From: an uncultured delta proteobacterium
GTDB lineage: Bacteria > Desulfobacterota > Syntrophia > Syntrophales > Smithellaceae
NCBI GenBank assembly: GCA_903907985.1
Contig: CAIVQG010000035.1
Coordinates: 62,001 to 126,000 of the forward strand
Reading direction: 5' to 3'
DNA: 64,000 nt
Notes under the pieces: generated by a model
What the model was told of the DNA's origin: nothing
Database searches by the model: none
Seen by the model: only the letters and a program-made list of their open reading frames with translations
Made by a program: the position numbers and the translations under genes
Part shown: positions 48,666-54,027 of the stretch, one piece after another
Position numbering within the stretch: the first letter of the stretch is position 1
How the letters are laid out: each line of letters opens with the position of its first letter

Positions 48666-49433
48666 CTATAACTTATTTGCCAGAACGGCAGCCCCGATAG
48701 CGCCGGTAAGCTGGGCGTATTTGGATACGTCGGGTTTAAATCCCAGAGCTTTTTCCAGGGCTCCAAGCAAGCCGACGTTTTTGGCCACACCACCCGTGAC
48801 CATTAGCGGCGTCGTCAAACCTGTGCGCGCGGCCAACGCAACAATGCGCGATCCGATAGATTCATGAATTCCCGCAATAATATTTTCTCTGGCAACTCCC
48901 TTGGAAATAAGCGAAATGACTTCGGACTCAGCAAAGACGGTACACAAACTGCTGATCTGGGCGGGATTCTGAGCGTCAAGTGATAAGGCGCCAAAATCAT
49001 CCAGATTTATTTCCAGCGCCCGCGCCATTACTTCCAGAAAGCGCCCTGTTCCCGCTGCACATTTGTCGTTCATGACAAAGTTTTTCACCTTGCCCTTTTC
49101 ATCCAGAAGAATCGCTTTGCTGTCCTGGCCGCCGATATCGATAATAAAGCGGATCTTCTCATTGAGAAAATACGCTCCGGCAGCATGGCAGGTGATTTCG
49201 GTGATGGCCTTATCGGCAAAATCAACACTGCTGCGGCCATAGCCGGTAGAGACAACTTTGATGCCGGAAGTATCATTCATGCCGGCGGCTAAGAGAAGCT
49301 CGGAAAACACTTTCTTGCCGGCGGTGGCGGAATTATAGCCGGTAAAAATCAGGTTGGTGCTGATCAGGCGACCATCCTGCAATAAAGCGGCTTTAGCTGT
49401 AATCGAACCAATATCAATACCTACCGTGTACAT
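48666..49433 (-). CDS. Acyl-CoA dehydratase activase (HgdC/BadF family ATPase)
   Basis: 255 residues of the ASKHA fold. The phosphate-binding loop is GIDIGSITAKAALL. The two [4Fe-4S]-ligand cysteines of the homodimer are in KCAAGTGRFLEV (about residue 126) and SSLCTVFAESE (about residue 165). VVSTGYGRSSVDFA and DIGGQDSKAI are also family motifs. It transfers one low-potential electron, driven by ATP, to the dehydratase encoded just upstream. The start overlaps that gene by 13 bases. A single activase argues for a dehydratase rather than a class I benzoyl-CoA reductase, which has two ATPase subunits. Confidence 0.93.
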   Translation of the reverse strand: MYTVGIDIGSITAKAALLQDGRLISTNLIFTGYNSATAGKKVFSELLLAAGMNDTSGIKVVSTGYGRSSVDFADKAITEITCHAAGAYFLNEKIRFIIDIGGQDSKAILLDEKGKVKNFVMNDKCAAGTGRFLEVMARALEINLDDFGALSLDAQNPAQISSLCTVFAESEVISLISKGVARENIIAGIHESIGSRIVALAARTGLTTPLMVTGGVAKNVGLLGALEKALGFKPDVSKYAQLTGAIGAAVLANKL

Positions 49434-50665
49434 GATTTCCTTTCTTTAACTACTTCCATAAAAGCGTCGATACGTGTTTCAATCTGGCTTTCGGAGAAGA
49501 ATCTTTCATCAACCATATCCGCTTCGATCATCAGGGAAGGCAGACCGCGCTTTTCGCGGACAATGCGCTGAATGTCGAGTTGCCCGAATGAATAGGGCTT
49601 GCAGCTTCGGTTGGAATGCATGACCAGCCCGTCAGCGCTGTATTTATCGATCATCGAGACAACATCACGCGCCATTTCATCGACGCCGATGTTCAAATAA
49701 ATCCTGGTGTAGGCTTCCGCCATGGATTCGATGAAATTATTTTCGTCGATATATTTTAAAGTTCCGCACCAGGCCGATGTGTAGGTATCGGCAACCAGAC
49801 AGGTATCAGCGGCGGCAAATTTATCCGAAAGCCATTTAGTGCGATACCATACCGGCAGGTTATCCCAGAGCAAACGGTACTTTTCGTTTTCGACCGCCCC
49901 GATATTATCGGCAATGCGCTCTCTCATTTCCGCCAGCAAGCCTTCGTAATAATCGACGGCCTGCTTTGTTCCCCGCAGAGTGACGATCAGCGCCAGATGG
50001 AAAAAGGCATCAAAGGCGGAAAGCGGGGCCGGTTTGTTCATAGCCGTATCCAACACCGCCTGCCATAGTCTCTGGCCTTCGACAGAAAGCCTGCCAACTT
50101 CTTTCATCCGGTCGTGGTCCATTTTCTTTTTGCAAGCATTTTCCAGAAAAACAATATATTCTTCAATTTGCCTGTGGACATATTTGCGGGCTTCCGGCAA
50201 AAATTGCGTATGACAAAAAGGCGTATCCAGAATAAACAACGGCACATTAAAATATCTGGCCTGGACTTCATACCATTTCAACACCGTGCCGCAGATATTA
50301 TTGCAACAAACCAGCATATCGGGCTTGGGCAGGCCGCCAATGGGGCCGCCGTTGACCGTAGCACAGGAAATATCACTGCGGGCGTAGGAACAAAGATCGC
50401 TGGAATAACCCATGACTTCGGCCTTCTGACAAAGATCAATACCCATCTTGCTGGCGCCAATCATCGCTCCGTGATTCTCCGGATAAATTGGAATGACATC
50501 CATCGCGATTAAAGGCTCCACCGGGCCGCCGCTCGTAATCCAGGCAACTTTTTTGCCGTTTTGCTCCGCCATCTTGGCATCGATATAATAGTTCGTCATG
50601 ATGTCTTTCATCTTTTTGACGGACTTGATTTTTCTCTTTTCTTTTGCGGGGTCTTTTTCAGCCAT
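49421..50665 (-). CDS. 2-hydroxyacyl-CoA dehydratase family subunit A (HgdA/FldB-like)
   Basis: 414 residues. Family segments include WITSGGPVEPLIAMDVIPIY (about 40-60), GYSSDLCSYARSDI with an iron-sulphur ligand Cys, LVCCNNICGTVLKWYEV and the late MHSNRSCKPYSFGQLDI with another ligand. It pairs with the subunit at 50846 to carry a [4Fe-4S] centre each. The start has AAGGAGATAATA upstream. The substrate (2-hydroxyglutaryl-, phenyllactyl-, or another 2-hydroxyacyl-CoA, or a benzoyl-CoA-reductase-like substrate) cannot be told from sequence alone. Confidence 0.9.
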   Translation of the reverse strand: MAEKDPAKEKRKIKSVKKMKDIMTNYYIDAKMAEQNGKKVAWITSGGPVEPLIAMDVIPIYPENHGAMIGASKMGIDLCQKAEVMGYSSDLCSYARSDISCATVNGGPIGGLPKPDMLVCCNNICGTVLKWYEVQARYFNVPLFILDTPFCHTQFLPEARKYVHRQIEEYIVFLENACKKKMDHDRMKEVGRLSVEGQRLWQAVLDTAMNKPAPLSAFDAFFHLALIVTLRGTKQAVDYYEGLLAEMRERIADNIGAVENEKYRLLWDNLPVWYRTKWLSDKFAAADTCLVADTYTSAWCGTLKYIDENNFIESMAEAYTRIYLNIGVDEMARDVVSMIDKYSADGLVMHSNRSCKPYSFGQLDIQRIVREKRGLPSLMIEADMVDERFFSESQIETRIDAFMEVVKERKSCTR

Positions 50666-50720
50666 TATTATCTCCTTAAAGATGACAAATTATTTAACAA
50701 CAATAAAACTATTAACTTTT

Positions 50721-50848
50721 AGGCAACCTTGTGAAACGGTTGCAGGCAAGGCGCACAAAGCCCGAGGAGTGAGTCGTACATTTAACGTACGTCGCAACGA
50801 CGAGGGCTGCAGGACAACGCAGCATCCGGCCGTTTTACGAGGTTGTCA
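50721..50848. repeat. Long imperfect palindrome between dehydratase subunit genes
   Basis: The outer arms AGGCAACCTTGTGAAACGG and CCGTTTTACGAGGTTGTC are near reverse complements. The inner part holds a second palindrome around GTACATTTAACGTACGTC, flanked by CCCGAGG and CGAGGGC. The right arm overlaps the last codons of the subunit gene at 50846. It looks like an intergenic repeat of the BIME/MITE type and could fold in the mRNA between the two subunits. Confidence 0.65.
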
Positions 50849-51970
50849 CGATAACGTTTCCAGAAAGGCCTCTATGCGTGTCTGGAGTTGTCCCTGCGCC
50901 TGCGGCTGATCCTCTACTTCCAGAAGCAGACTGGGGATGGAGACCGCAGCCAGCGACTCTTTCAAATAAGGATAATCGAAAGCGTGCGGATCGCAGAATT
51001 TCAGCAGCATAAAAATGACTCCGGCGGCTTTGCCGTCTTGTGCGATTTTGATTAGATTTTCCGCCCGGGCATTTTTATCCAGATGCTTGGCCGGACAAAC
51101 CGGCCGCTGCCAATATCGTTCGGCGATCGCGGCAATGGGATTGCCTGCGGTTTTTATTGAGCCCTCAAAATATCGGGAGCCCGTACAGAGATCATCACCG
51201 ACAACCACCCCGCCCGCATTTTCGATTACGGAATAAATATCCGGCTGGCTGCAGATGCCCCCCGAAATAATTAATCGTCTCTTCCCGGTGGATTTTATCG
51301 TGCTGCCTTTCGTCTCCAGTTCGGCAATTACATTGAGCAGAATTCTTAAATAGTCATTTCTATCCATAATCATCGCCGCCCGAACCAGCGCAGATAGATC
51401 CTTGCCACTGATGACTTCCGGATTTTTATTTTTCAATTCGTAAACTTTTTTCAAGCCGCCGCGGATTTCATTGTAAAGGGCAATAGATTTTTTAATGTCG
51501 TCATCGGTAATCGTGACTTGCAGCGCCTTTTCCAGATCATTACGGAAGCGGTTTTGCACATCGACCATATAATCCCGGGAGCTTTTAGTGTCCAGTTTCA
51601 CCGGTAAAACGACATCCAGATGGAATCCGTAAGAAATGTTAAGCCGCCAGATATCCGAGAGGCGCTGCACCGTATCGCAGGTATGGGGGAATATCATGCC
51701 ATCGAGAAAATTTAAATCCCCGGAGAGTGCGTCTTCCAGAACGCCGCGCACCAGCGAACAGCAATATGCCTGCAAATGGCCGTCAGCCAGAAAGATATTC
51801 TTGTTGGAACCGAACAGCCGCAACGGATGCGCACCGGCAGCCTGGATAATTTCTTCCGGTGCGTATGTGCACATATAGCCGATAATTTTTTTGCCGCTTT
51901 GTTCTTTGAGCTTCCTCGCGTAGCTAATCGGGTCGCCCACAATCGCAGAAAGTTCCTTTATTGCTTGCAT
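50846..51970 (-). CDS. 2-hydroxyacyl-CoA dehydratase family subunit B (HgdB/FldC-like)
   Basis: 374 residues. Family segments: GKKIIGYMCTYAPEEIIQAA (about 25-45), YCCSLVRGVLEDAL, GMIFPHTCDTVQRL with an iron-sulphur ligand Cys, SGGICSQPDIYSVIENAGG, GDDLCTGSRYFEG and LKFCDPHAFDYPY. This is the typical second subunit of the heterodimeric dehydratase. It follows the ligase by 23 bases (AAGGAG upstream of the ATG). The gap to the other subunit (180 bases) is filled by a long palindrome. Confidence 0.9.
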   Translation of the reverse strand: MQAIKELSAIVGDPISYARKLKEQSGKKIIGYMCTYAPEEIIQAAGAHPLRLFGSNKNIFLADGHLQAYCCSLVRGVLEDALSGDLNFLDGMIFPHTCDTVQRLSDIWRLNISYGFHLDVVLPVKLDTKSSRDYMVDVQNRFRNDLEKALQVTITDDDIKKSIALYNEIRGGLKKVYELKNKNPEVISGKDLSALVRAAMIMDRNDYLRILLNVIAELETKGSTIKSTGKRRLIISGGICSQPDIYSVIENAGGVVVGDDLCTGSRYFEGSIKTAGNPIAAIAERYWQRPVCPAKHLDKNARAENLIKIAQDGKAAGVIFMLLKFCDPHAFDYPYLKESLAAVSIPSLLLEVEDQPQAQGQLQTRIEAFLETLS

Positions 51971-51993
51971 TAATTATATCTCCTTAACCATAA

Positions 51994-53715
51994 TCATTTT
52001 TCTCCGGCATATTTACCGGCGGCCTTCAGCTTGGCAATTTCTTCTTTTTCCAATGCATTGAAGGCGACTTTACCGACCAGTGTTTTAGGCAGTTCGGAGC
52101 GAAACTCTATGGACCGGGGACAACTCCACTTAATCAACTGATCACGACAATAGTTAATTAATTCCTTCTCCATTTCCGGGCTCGCCTCCGCCGTATTCTT
52201 CAGGACGACAAATGCTTTCACCACCTGTACCTGGGCTTCATCGGGCACACCGACTACGCAGGCATCACGGACCTGTGGATGCTTGTAAAGAATTTCTTCC
52301 ACCTGCGCGGGATAGACATTCATGCCGGATGATTTGATCATCCGCTTTTGCCGGAGTTTGAAGTAAAAGAATCCGTCTTCGTCCATCGTACCGATATCTC
52401 CGGTGTGCAACCAGATTCTGCCGTCAGCATGCTGCTTCAAAGTATCGGCTGTTTCCTGCGGCGAATCGAGATAACCCATCATCACTGCGGGACCGGCAAC
52501 ACATATTTCGCCTTCTTCACCGATTGCTGCTTCATCGGTTGTATCGAGCCGGACAATCTTCGCCAGCATATCCGGAAAAGGCACACCGATACTGCCTTCC
52601 CGATAGCAGCCCAGCGGCATCGCCATAATGGCCGTAACAGCCTCGGTTAATCCGTATCCTTCCAGAAGCTGGACATTGCCACCCTGCTTTTTAACCATTT
52701 CTTCAAACCGCTCTTTGACCGGCCGGGGCAAAGAATCGGCGCCGGAGAAGGTGGCCCGCAGGCAACTGAGATCCGCCTTGTGCATCTTCGGATTGCTGCT
52801 CAGGGCGTCAAACAGAGTTGGCACACCAATGACAAACGAAGGTTTCTGTGAATGGATAATATCGGCAACTGTCTCCGGTGTAAACATCGGCACCAGAATA
52901 CTTTTGCCGCCTCCCATAAAGCAGGCATTGATGCAAACGCCCAGACCGAAGCCATGAAAGATCGGTAAAATGGCCAGTATGGATGTAGCATCGTCGAGCT
53001 TTCCCCATTCCGACACCTGTTTGCCCTCAGAGATAAAATTCATATTGGAAAGCATGATGCCCTTGGGAATTCCAGTCGTCCCGCCGCTGTATAAAATAAC
53101 CGCCAGGTCATCGGTATTCATTTGCGCCTTGGGCGTTAGGGCATACCTGCCTTTCATGAGAGCAGCCCACCACCTGACCATCGGGTCCTCGGGCACCTTG
53201 GGAATCAGGCGGCCTTTGGTTAAATTAAAGCCGATTCGCTTGAAGACATGCAAATAATCGGGAATCCGCGCCAGAATAATGGTTTCAAGCGGTGTAGTAT
53301 TTTGAACTTCTTTGAATTTGGAGTAGAAGGCATCGATCGTCAGGGCAAAACGGCTTTTCGCCACATTGAGATAAAATTCAATTTCTTTGGCCGTGGATAA
53401 GGGATGAATCATGCTGGAGACAGCGCCGAGTTTATTGGCAGCGTAAAAACATATTATCCCCTGCGGCGATGTGGGCATCGAGATGGTAATTCTTTCACCT
53501 TTTCTCAGTCCCAGCGCTGCCAGAGCATCGGCGCACTGGTCAATCTCGGTCATAAATTGGCGGTAGGTTGATGTATAGCCGAGAAAATCATAGGCAATCG
53601 CAGCAGGTTTTTCCTGCGCCGTTTGCTCGAGGGCTTCATACATGGTGACACGGGGATAATTAATTGTATGAGGCACGTTGCCATAATGCTTCAACCACGG
53701 CTTCAGCTCGTACAT
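51994..53715 (-). CDS. AMP-forming acyl-CoA ligase/synthetase
   Basis: 573 residues of the ANL superfamily. The AMP-binding signature is YSGGTTGIPKG (about residues 213-223), then LEGYGLTEAVTAIM (the GYGxTE motif), HTGDIGTMDEDG and the C-terminal catalytic Lys in LPKTLVGKVAF (about residue 552). It activates a carboxylic acid to its CoA ester. It is first in an operon with two dehydratase subunits and the activase, so it probably makes the substrate or a precursor for that enzyme; chain length and substrate are not evident. AAGGAGG lies before the ATG. Confidence 0.9.
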   Translation of the reverse strand: MYELKPWLKHYGNVPHTINYPRVTMYEALEQTAQEKPAAIAYDFLGYTSTYRQFMTEIDQCADALAALGLRKGERITISMPTSPQGIICFYAANKLGAVSSMIHPLSTAKEIEFYLNVAKSRFALTIDAFYSKFKEVQNTTPLETIILARIPDYLHVFKRIGFNLTKGRLIPKVPEDPMVRWWAALMKGRYALTPKAQMNTDDLAVILYSGGTTGIPKGIMLSNMNFISEGKQVSEWGKLDDATSILAILPIFHGFGLGVCINACFMGGGKSILVPMFTPETVADIIHSQKPSFVIGVPTLFDALSSNPKMHKADLSCLRATFSGADSLPRPVKERFEEMVKKQGGNVQLLEGYGLTEAVTAIMAMPLGCYREGSIGVPFPDMLAKIVRLDTTDEAAIGEEGEICVAGPAVMMGYLDSPQETADTLKQHADGRIWLHTGDIGTMDEDGFFYFKLRQKRMIKSSGMNVYPAQVEEILYKHPQVRDACVVGVPDEAQVQVVKAFVVLKNTAEASPEMEKELINYCRDQLIKWSCPRSIEFRSELPKTLVGKVAFNALEKEEIAKLKAAGKYAGEK

Positions 53716-53911
53716 GCCATGACCTCCTTATGCCAATTTTCATTAAAGCTCTATATTTGCCGGCGGATCTTGTCGGCCGCATGGCGGATCATCGTTTTTC
53801 AATGTACACTTAATATATGCCTGCTAACAGAAAAATGCGGAATTGCGCCGAAACTATAATACAACCTGTTCTTCTTTTAAAGGATTATTTATCAGAAAAC
53901 CTTTCCTGCAT

Positions 53912-53944
53912 AAAAAAAGGGCTACGGCGTAAGCCGTAACCCTT
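53912..53944 (-). terminator. Terminator downstream of tRNA-Val
   Basis: On the minus strand AAGGGTTACGGC pairs with GCCGTAGCCCT (one mismatch) around TTAC, followed by seven T. It lies 9 bases beyond the tRNA CCA. Confidence 0.8.
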
Positions 53945-53952
53945 AATTATCA

Positions 53953-54027
53953 TGGTAGGCGGTGCTGGGATTGAACCAGCGACTTCTACCGTGTGAAGGT
54001 AGCACTCTCCCGCTGAGTTAACCGCCC
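53953..54027 (-). tRNA. tRNA-Val (CAC)
   Basis: A 75-base tRNA with encoded CCA. The acceptor pairs GGGCGGT with ACCGCCT, so 1:72 is a G:U wobble. The anticodon loop is TTCACAC (anticodon CAC, valine GUG), with stem CTACC/GGTAG and T arm GCTGG-TTCAATC-CCAGC. It stands alone, with a terminator directly after it. Confidence 0.9.

Follow-up and report, generated by a model that had tools for sequence, protein, structure and literature searches.

A minus-strand operon for a putative radical CoA-thioester enzyme with dehydratase-like and reductase-like features in an uncultured member of the Smithellaceae

We analyzed a 64,000-nucleotide stretch of DNA (hereafter the window) from an uncultured delta proteobacterium of the Smithellaceae (contig CAIVQG010000035.1, positions 62,001 to 126,000), and within it a tight row of four minus-strand genes (48666-53715) encoding a ligase, a beta and an alpha subunit, and an activase. 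In the reading that we favor, with a probability of about one half, these genes specify a radical enzyme resembling 2-hydroxyacyl-CoA dehydratases, in which a predicted [8Fe-9S] cluster would serve as an unusually large store of electrons. Judged by its sequences, the set is a mosaic, composed of a HadB-like alpha subunit, a six-cysteine beta subunit of the BzdN/DCCP type and a single activase. It groups with none of the reference families tested and forms its own branch of the BCR/HAD family. The genes are, in the order of transcription:

51994..53715, minus strand: AMP-forming acyl-CoA ligase, first gene, 573 aa (PF00501, 261 bits; PF13193, 82 bits)
50846..51970, minus strand: beta subunit, HGD-D, 374 aa (PF06050, 294 bits), predicted carrier of an [8Fe-9S] double cubane
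49421..50665, minus strand: alpha subunit, HGD-D, 414 aa (PF06050, 264 bits), predicted catalytic subunit with [4Fe-4S]-OH2
48666..49433, minus strand: ATP-dependent activase of the HgdC/HadI (BadF/HgdC) type, 255 aa (PF01869, 212 bits; TIGR00241, 275 bits, above cut-off)

The Pfam domain scores of the four proteins are far above chance level. The ligase and beta genes are separated by 23 bp and the beta and alpha genes by 180 bp, while the alpha and activase genes overlap by 13 bp. The original prediction, which placed a ligase, two iron-sulphur subunits and one activase here, is borne out for all four genes, as is its assignment to a radical BCR/HAD-family set with a single ATP-driven activase, seen in the two HGD-D subunits and the BadF-type ATPase.

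The subunits and their predicted clusters

The closest solved structure to the alpha subunit is HadB, by sequence as well as by the fold of its model; the score with the HadB equivalog model is 303 bits (cut-off 750). C92, C125 and C355, the motif S45-G46-G47-P48, and E63 are identical in all 87 sequences compared (window included). Alpha therefore has what a dehydratase subunit should have, i.e. three cysteines for an open-site [4Fe-4S] cluster, predicted from the residues, with a serine and a glutamate near it. Ser45 and Glu63 match Ser37 and Glu55 of HadB, which act in catalysis, and Ser44 and Glu65 of BzdO. According to the passages available of PMC11971306, in which Ser44 and Glu65 are described, BzdO and HadB each hold [4Fe-4S]-OH2 on three cysteines. 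The loop W-x-x-S-x-x-P and the PE pair that follows it are common to alpha, HadB and the HadB homologues (one of which, L113, has alanine for the serine). Gly46-Gly47 of alpha occupy the positions of Val38-Phe39 of HadB, and the pocket may be wider than that of HadB. The AlphaFold model of alpha has a mean predicted local distance difference test (pLDDT) score of 77.6 (alignment of 37 sequences), and residues 64-110, near the active site, are poorly modelled. Across largely the same loci, alpha is much more conserved (73-93% identity to the window) than beta (46-85%).

The beta subunit contains six cysteines (34, 71, 98, 262, 292 and 326) that align with cysteines of the solved chains of BzdN and DCCP, and it is predicted to carry an [8Fe-9S] double-cubane cluster. 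The six ligand positions, i.e. the cysteines common to BzdN and DCCP, are our own assignment, and the passages available of PMC11971306 give no numbering; they describe a double cubane on six cysteine ligands in BzdN and a [4Fe-5S] cluster in the second HAD subunit. The fifth cysteine is shifted by one residue in the pairwise alignment with DCCP and falls in a gap in the alignment with the Fusobacterium and Proteus homologues. Across a set of 67 betas that counts the window and was limited to 350-489 residues and to 45% identity or more, the first five cysteines are invariant (67/67); Cys326 is present in 65, the remaining two having gaps. The six positions read CCCCCC in the clade of the window (see below) versus PCCACC in HadC and its homologues, so that beta is not of the HadC type, and a six-cysteine N (beta) subunit for a double cubane is a feature that the set has in common with BZD-type enzymes. 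Among the rows of the beta tree, the full set occurs in 32/32 of the window clade (some stemming from one genome twice), 11/11 of the sister sets, 6/7 of the four-gene sets and 0/5 of the HadC type. Unassigned rows L124, L126 and L157 have all six cysteines and L111, L112, L114 and L125 do not; betas with incomplete sets were also found in Fusobacterium (0/6), Proteus (4/6) and an Azoarcus plasmid set (4/6).

Among the PDB structures, BzdN is the best match by E-value to the AlphaFold2 model of beta (mean pLDDT 89.7, alignment of 41 sequences); HadC reaches the same TM-score, and DCCP comes near it. In profile searches, beta scored 225 bits with HadC (cut-off 700), 206 with the double-cubane model and 197 with BzdN, and the DCCP model NF040772 gave 92 and 206 bits for the two HGD-D subunits (cut-off 350).

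The activase matches HadI and HgdC (224 bits each) and MbdQ (222 bits) in the PDB, and its cysteines C125 and C164 are kept in 50/50 sequences. The window has a single activase and the related loci at most one each; in L052 (9360-10132; the same contig as L103), from a Syntrophaceae metagenome-assembled genome, the gene is split over two frames and apparently broken, and a fused aldehyde and alcohol dehydrogenase is encoded upstream of the ligase. Two activases are present in six of seven four-gene sets (L115, L118-L122), and the seventh (L117) ends at a contig edge. The window thus does not have the two different activase subunits of BZD-type enzymes.

Set against known systems, the window set shares with HadBC and HadI (PDB 3o3m, 4eht) the alpha fold, the active-site loop, the three cluster cysteines, the equivalents of Ser37 and Glu55, and the single activase, but Cys34 and Cys262 of its beta correspond to Pro and Ala in HadC, the identities are 35% (alpha) and 26-27% (beta, structural alignment), and the scores are low (303/750 and 225/700 bits). 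With BzdNO (PDB 8s02) it shares the six cysteines and the best fold match by E-value of BzdN, but differs in having one activase instead of two, in lacking His131 and Trp46 of BzdO, and in its separate clade. The 3-methylbenzoyl-CoA reductase MbdONPQ (PDB 9g87, 9gai) is similar in family and overall fold; it differs in having two activase-type subunits and only three of the six cysteines in MbdN. The Fusobacterium homologue L178, which we take to be of the 2-hydroxyglutaryl-CoA dehydratase type, likewise consists of alpha, beta and one activase, but all six cysteines are missing from its beta, and no ligase in the 11 kb of this locus matched that of the window.

Kinship within the family and the presence of a CoA ligase would also suit an ATP-dependent aryl-CoA (benzoyl-CoA-type, class I) reductase for aromatic acids, which we regard as quite unlikely. 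Apart from the single activase, alpha has Val128 in place of His131 and Gly47 in place of Trp46 of BzdO in 87/87 sequences; His131 is described as catalytic, beside the cluster water, in the passages available of PMC11971306. MbdO also has no equivalent of this histidine in our alignment, so its loss speaks only against the BZD subtype.

DCCP with DCCP-R (PDB 6eno, 7yyl) resembles the window set in its six cysteines and in its one activase type, and the window-type ligase is missing from many related loci. These features would fit a DCCP-like small-molecule reductase or some other role in which the ligase is an incidental neighbor. This seems very improbable. Each half of the DCCP homodimer carries a double cubane (passages available of PMC11971306), whereas the window set has two distinct subunits, of which only beta retains the six cysteines and alpha has the cysteine set of a single cluster. 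Further arguments against it are the distance of DCCP in the trees, the co-occurrence of ligase and alpha (see below), and the presence in the genome of the window (G000) of a DCCP-like protein elsewhere. The latter (L126, contig C40) is a six-cysteine protein encoded on another contig.

Position within the BCR/HAD family

Related loci were sampled as the best 80 named of 229, some genomes giving two or three, and 59 genomes of the order plus 297 of the phylum were also surveyed. Gene calls in the fetched loci were simple codon-based ones, some of them incomplete. The trees comprised 66 alpha and 65 beta rows, rows shorter than 330 residues after trimming being left out; 18 named loci were chosen, yielding 14 alpha and 13 beta rows, and the window enters twice (also as L128), as do some genomes. 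As references we used HadBC, BzdNO, MbdNO and DCCP chains and Desulfobacterota homologues, and the Fusobacterium and Proteus homologues served for residue comparison only.

The window and its relatives from Desulfobacterota, Spirochaetota and SAR324 form a single group in both trees (support 100/99 for alpha and 100/100 for beta). Relatives occur in many uncultured Desulfobacterota and in two named strains of Desulfosarcina, namely D. alkanivorans PL12 (L048), which has ligase, beta, alpha and activase, and D. widdelii PP31 (L070), which has beta, alpha and activase. The HadBC-like rows constitute their own clade (100/100 and 100/98), with which the window does not group; HadBC-like sets of the same order, with 47-52% identity to HadBC of C. 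difficile, belong to this separate group. The alpha tree unites the window clade with sister sets from families f34 and f40 (100/99), which are not one clade themselves; deeper branches of this tree have weak support (89/32, 87/66), and the program issued a long-branch warning. The neighbor of the window group in the beta tree is a group made up of MbdN, HadC-type rows and three rows without assignment (98/91). DCCP is distant in both trees. The original prediction had left the substrate to phylogeny; the analysis with HadBC, BzdNO, MbdNO and DCCP gave no grouping with one family and does not settle it.

The seven four-gene (BZD-like) sets, so called on the basis of two activases and similarity to BzdN, form a group of their own, outside which the BzdN and BzdO references fall. 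Their separation from the window clade, together with their presence in the same family (e.g. G001, L115), is a further argument against an aryl-CoA reductase, as is the ascription of the tetrahydronaphthoyl-CoA reductase of N47 and NaphS2 to four genes (PMC12016498, as far as its available text goes). No bcrABCD homologues are reported for Desulfococcus multivorans in the available part of PMC5109826. Among the matches listed from open-licence papers (titles and openings of abstracts), we recognized none that deals with the window clade.

A further HGD-D pair occurs in the family (L111, L112, L125); its beta pattern is PCC(A/S)CC and it is separate from both HadBC and the window clade.

Dehydration or reduction

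Dehydratases, which recycle one electron, and class I benzoyl-CoA reductases, which spend ATP on each electron, share a scaffold, and to our knowledge it is not settled what decides between the two outcomes. In the favored dehydratase reading, the ligase would form the CoA thioester of a 2-hydroxy acid. The activase would hydrolyze ATP and drive a low-potential electron into the alpha-beta dimer, as is established in the family. Beta would store this electron in its predicted [8Fe-9S] double cubane and pass it to the predicted [4Fe-4S]-OH2 of alpha by Ser45/Glu63. By analogy with the HAD mechanism, the thioester would become a ketyl radical, lose its 2-hydroxyl and leave as 2-enoyl-CoA for beta-oxidation, with the electron being recycled. 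Of this picture, the gene content, the orthology, the conserved ligand residues and the predicted fold were observed, and the cluster types, the class of substrate and the direction are inferred. This redox-neutral course is favored because of the HadB-like alpha, the one activase and the hydroxyacid-type neighbors of related sets. In contrast to class I reductases, dehydratases use the same electron again through many turnovers (passages available of PMC11971306), and such economy would suit a syntroph.

The hydroxyacid-type neighbors are as follows. Most prominent are genes for nickel racemases of the LarA type, which in six genomes (L071; L053, L078, L079, L087, L175) are oriented divergently to beta at a distance of 235-317 bp. 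One such sequence scored 190 bits with the malate-racemase model (cut-off 500); the motifs for D72, R75, H108, H174 and K184, whose roles in LarA are taken from the available part of PMC7583248 together with that of H200, were found in 5/5 sequences, and H200 in four, with the fifth (L053) recognized by eye. Genome G011 has a second LarA type and a glycerate-kinase-like gene upstream of the ligase, a contig end cutting beta. In G018 and G024, the genes that we label metallo, kpsF and hex, which flank the operon in the window, are followed, at the place of the operon, by genes for a LarA (76% identical to that of family f52) and for a D-2-hydroxyacid dehydrogenase, after which G018 encodes a VOC-type protein and a CoA ligase; alpha and beta are sited elsewhere in both genomes. 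In locus L084 the activase is followed by genes for a crotonase-like protein (recognized by eye), a CCG protein and a GlcD-like protein; in L042, genes upstream of beta encode a 3-hydroxyacyl-CoA dehydrogenase and, recognized by eye, a thiolase. The earlier statement that no hydroxyacid dehydrogenase adjoins the set is correct for the window; some relatives do have neighbors of the 2-hydroxyacid type, with LarA (six genomes, and the second type in G011) or with GlcD-like and CCG genes (L084). Of the aromatic, amino-acid and hydroxy-acid roles initially proposed, the neighbors of the relatives lean towards the hydroxy-acid over the aromatic one.

Several observations weigh against dehydration. 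The kinship of alpha to HadB is weakly supported in its tree. The beta cysteines are like those of BzdN, part of a reductase, and the six-cysteine set is found in 0/7 dehydratase-type betas (HadC, four HadC-like, Fusobacterium and Proteus), each of which is short of at least two; only HadC among them is characterized, the others being so called by similarity. All the LarA-neighbor genomes but L071 (five of six) belong to one family, f52, in which two other genomes (L171, L172) have an H+-pyrophosphatase gene in the LarA slot. The genome of the window has no LarA gene, and only 21 of the 59 relatives have one. Other sets have varied neighbors (transporters, amidase etc.), and the f34 sister sets (L158, L159, L161) stand amid genes for aldehyde:ferredoxin oxidoreductase, alanine dehydrogenase and an amino-acid permease, and the 18 kb viewed contain neither an activase nor a ligase of these types.

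The main rival, which we consider rather unlikely, is a net reductase, in which beta would store at least two activase electrons and alpha would spend them on the thioester (for instance by reductive removal of the 2-hydroxyl or on a conjugated non-benzoyl system). It would account for the retention of the BzdN/DCCP-type cysteines in every row of the window clade and of the sister sets, and for their absence from the dehydratase-type betas compared; the double cubane of BzdN is proposed to accumulate at least two electrons (passages available of PMC11971306). Such two-electron storage would favor reduction, but the six-cysteine state is not decisive alone because it looks ancestral. Nine of the rows without the set (HadC type, MbdN, L111, L112 and L125) form one group in the beta tree (L114, and L119 by one residue, also lack it and lie elsewhere), and retention of the set need not imply reduction. 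Moreover, MbdN comes from a reductase and yet lacks three of the six cysteines, alpha resembles HadB, and a reductase would bear the cost in ATP. The family assignment of the original prediction stands, but the set is better described as a mosaic than as a dehydratase awaiting assignment, its beta being of the BzdN/DCCP type with six cysteines, two of which HadC lacks.

Ring reduction in strict anaerobes is ascribed to class II enzymes, which do not depend on ATP. It is conceivable, if somewhat unlikely, that syntrophs and sulfate reducers, themselves strict anaerobes, possess in this clade an ATP-driven CoA-thioester reductase of a type of its own, in which a dehydratase-type catalytic subunit, a double cubane and a single activase would support net multi-electron reduction. 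Because the clade combines both feature sets, the number of electrons and ATP per turnover would distinguish this idea from the favored dehydratase. Uniting a dehydratase-type catalytic subunit and a reductase-type electron store with one activase, the clade could show what separates the two chemistries. Its genes are likely annotated simply as dehydratases, and for this reason the real reaction would alter the reading of carbon flow in the organisms that carry them.

Ligase, gene neighborhoods and flanks of the operon

The best four NCBIfam matches of the ligase are long-chain-fatty-acid--CoA ligases (375-409 bits), all under their cut-offs, so no substrate was assigned. An attempt to infer the substrate from the ligase was dropped, the NCBIfam and PDB matches being broad (fatty acid, 4-coumarate and luciferase types). 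The ligase is a frequent but not a constant partner of the set. Among the 59 genomes, scored by hand with partial matches counted, 27 have both ligase and alpha, 10 alpha only, 3 ligase only and 19 neither (one-sided Fisher p 9.6e-6, uncorrected for kinship). Genome G001, of the same genus, encodes an alpha 92% identical to that of the window, beta and the activase, with no such ligase at E 1e-200 or better. The set described as self-contained with its ligase is thus so in the window, but the ligase does not define it. Other sets of the clade adjoin AMP-ligases of other types (cluster c16; one ACS-like).

In genus g5, a ligase 84-88% identical is sited outside the operon, and in 3/5 genomes (G007, G018, G032) it adjoins a cluster with an ammonia-lyase homologue, presumably of the aryl-polyene kind. 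This is weak evidence for an aromatic role and thus for an aryl-CoA reductase, since the link is limited to displaced copies. Ligase orthologues 85-88% identical also adjoin ammonia-lyase, thioesterase and RND exporter genes in L181, L183, L187, L201 and L202 (the ammonia-lyase search covered L183 only), and ketosynthase-like genes near displaced copies were recognized by eye.

Beta (at least 40% identity) lies on the same strand no more than 500 bp upstream of alpha in 72 of the 80 loci, many of which are cut by contig ends, and an activase (45%) within 3.5 kb downstream in 52. A window-type ligase (60%) occurs anywhere in 22 loci, in 18 of these on the same strand within 1.6 kb. Of the 41 loci that extend 4.5 kb or more upstream and 3.5 kb or more downstream of alpha, 38 contain beta, 32 the activase and 17 the ligase (14 close and on the same strand). 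A short-chain dehydrogenase/reductase gene (cluster c4) follows alpha, mostly before the activase, in 13 loci from several families. Four loci (L034, L039, L041, L064) have alpha and the activase without beta, with a DJ-1/PfpI-family gene upstream of alpha (family searched in L041); in the three genomes that could be searched, a beta of 47-51% identity is encoded elsewhere, and no clear pathway was found among the neighbors of orphan beta loci. MoxR-type and VWA genes also lie by the three f34 sister sets. An acetoacetate decarboxylase (L015), an M20-type peptidase (cluster c5, 10 loci), and FeoB-like and MoaE-like neighbors (the last three named by eye) were judged lineage-specific and uninformative.

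The operon is preceded in the window by the following features:

53953-54027: tRNA-Val (CAC), directly upstream of the ligase operon
53917..53944, minus strand: terminator-like stem-loop by consensus match, with 12 pairs in the stem and a T run after it, located between the genes for tRNA-Val and the ligase
53853..53881, minus strand: promoter-like site 5' of the ligase (9/12 consensus match)

The promoter-like site carries little weight, since the region has 16 such sites against a mean of 11.0 in shuffled sequences; for terminator-like sites the values are 6 and 8.2. The operon may owe its position to arrival beside tRNA-Val. Genes for a nitrilase and a TetR regulator lie further upstream and were ruled out as operon members because the tRNA gene and the terminator-like stem intervene. 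In the first gene calls of the loci, the nitrilase of the window was the sole match, and a later match (35% identity) lies about 5.5 kb from alpha in L198. Downstream, the operon converges on a hexapeptide-repeat gene.

A search of a viral collection with the ligase returned two stretches matching a pattern, neither of which encodes a relative. The plasmid search gave 16 records, all below 60% identity, three of which were used for comparison. Plasmid pAZKH of Azoarcus sp. KH32C (L179, 4759-10694) encodes consecutively beta (pattern PCCYCC), alpha, an activase, a CaiB-type CoA-transferase and an acyl-CoA dehydrogenase. In Proteus mirabilis (L180, 162-6339; a record of 4.08 Mb called a plasmid) a distant AMP-ligase adjoins a HadBC-like pair (47-49%) and an activase, and a ligase beside a HadBC-type set is therefore not unique to the window clade.

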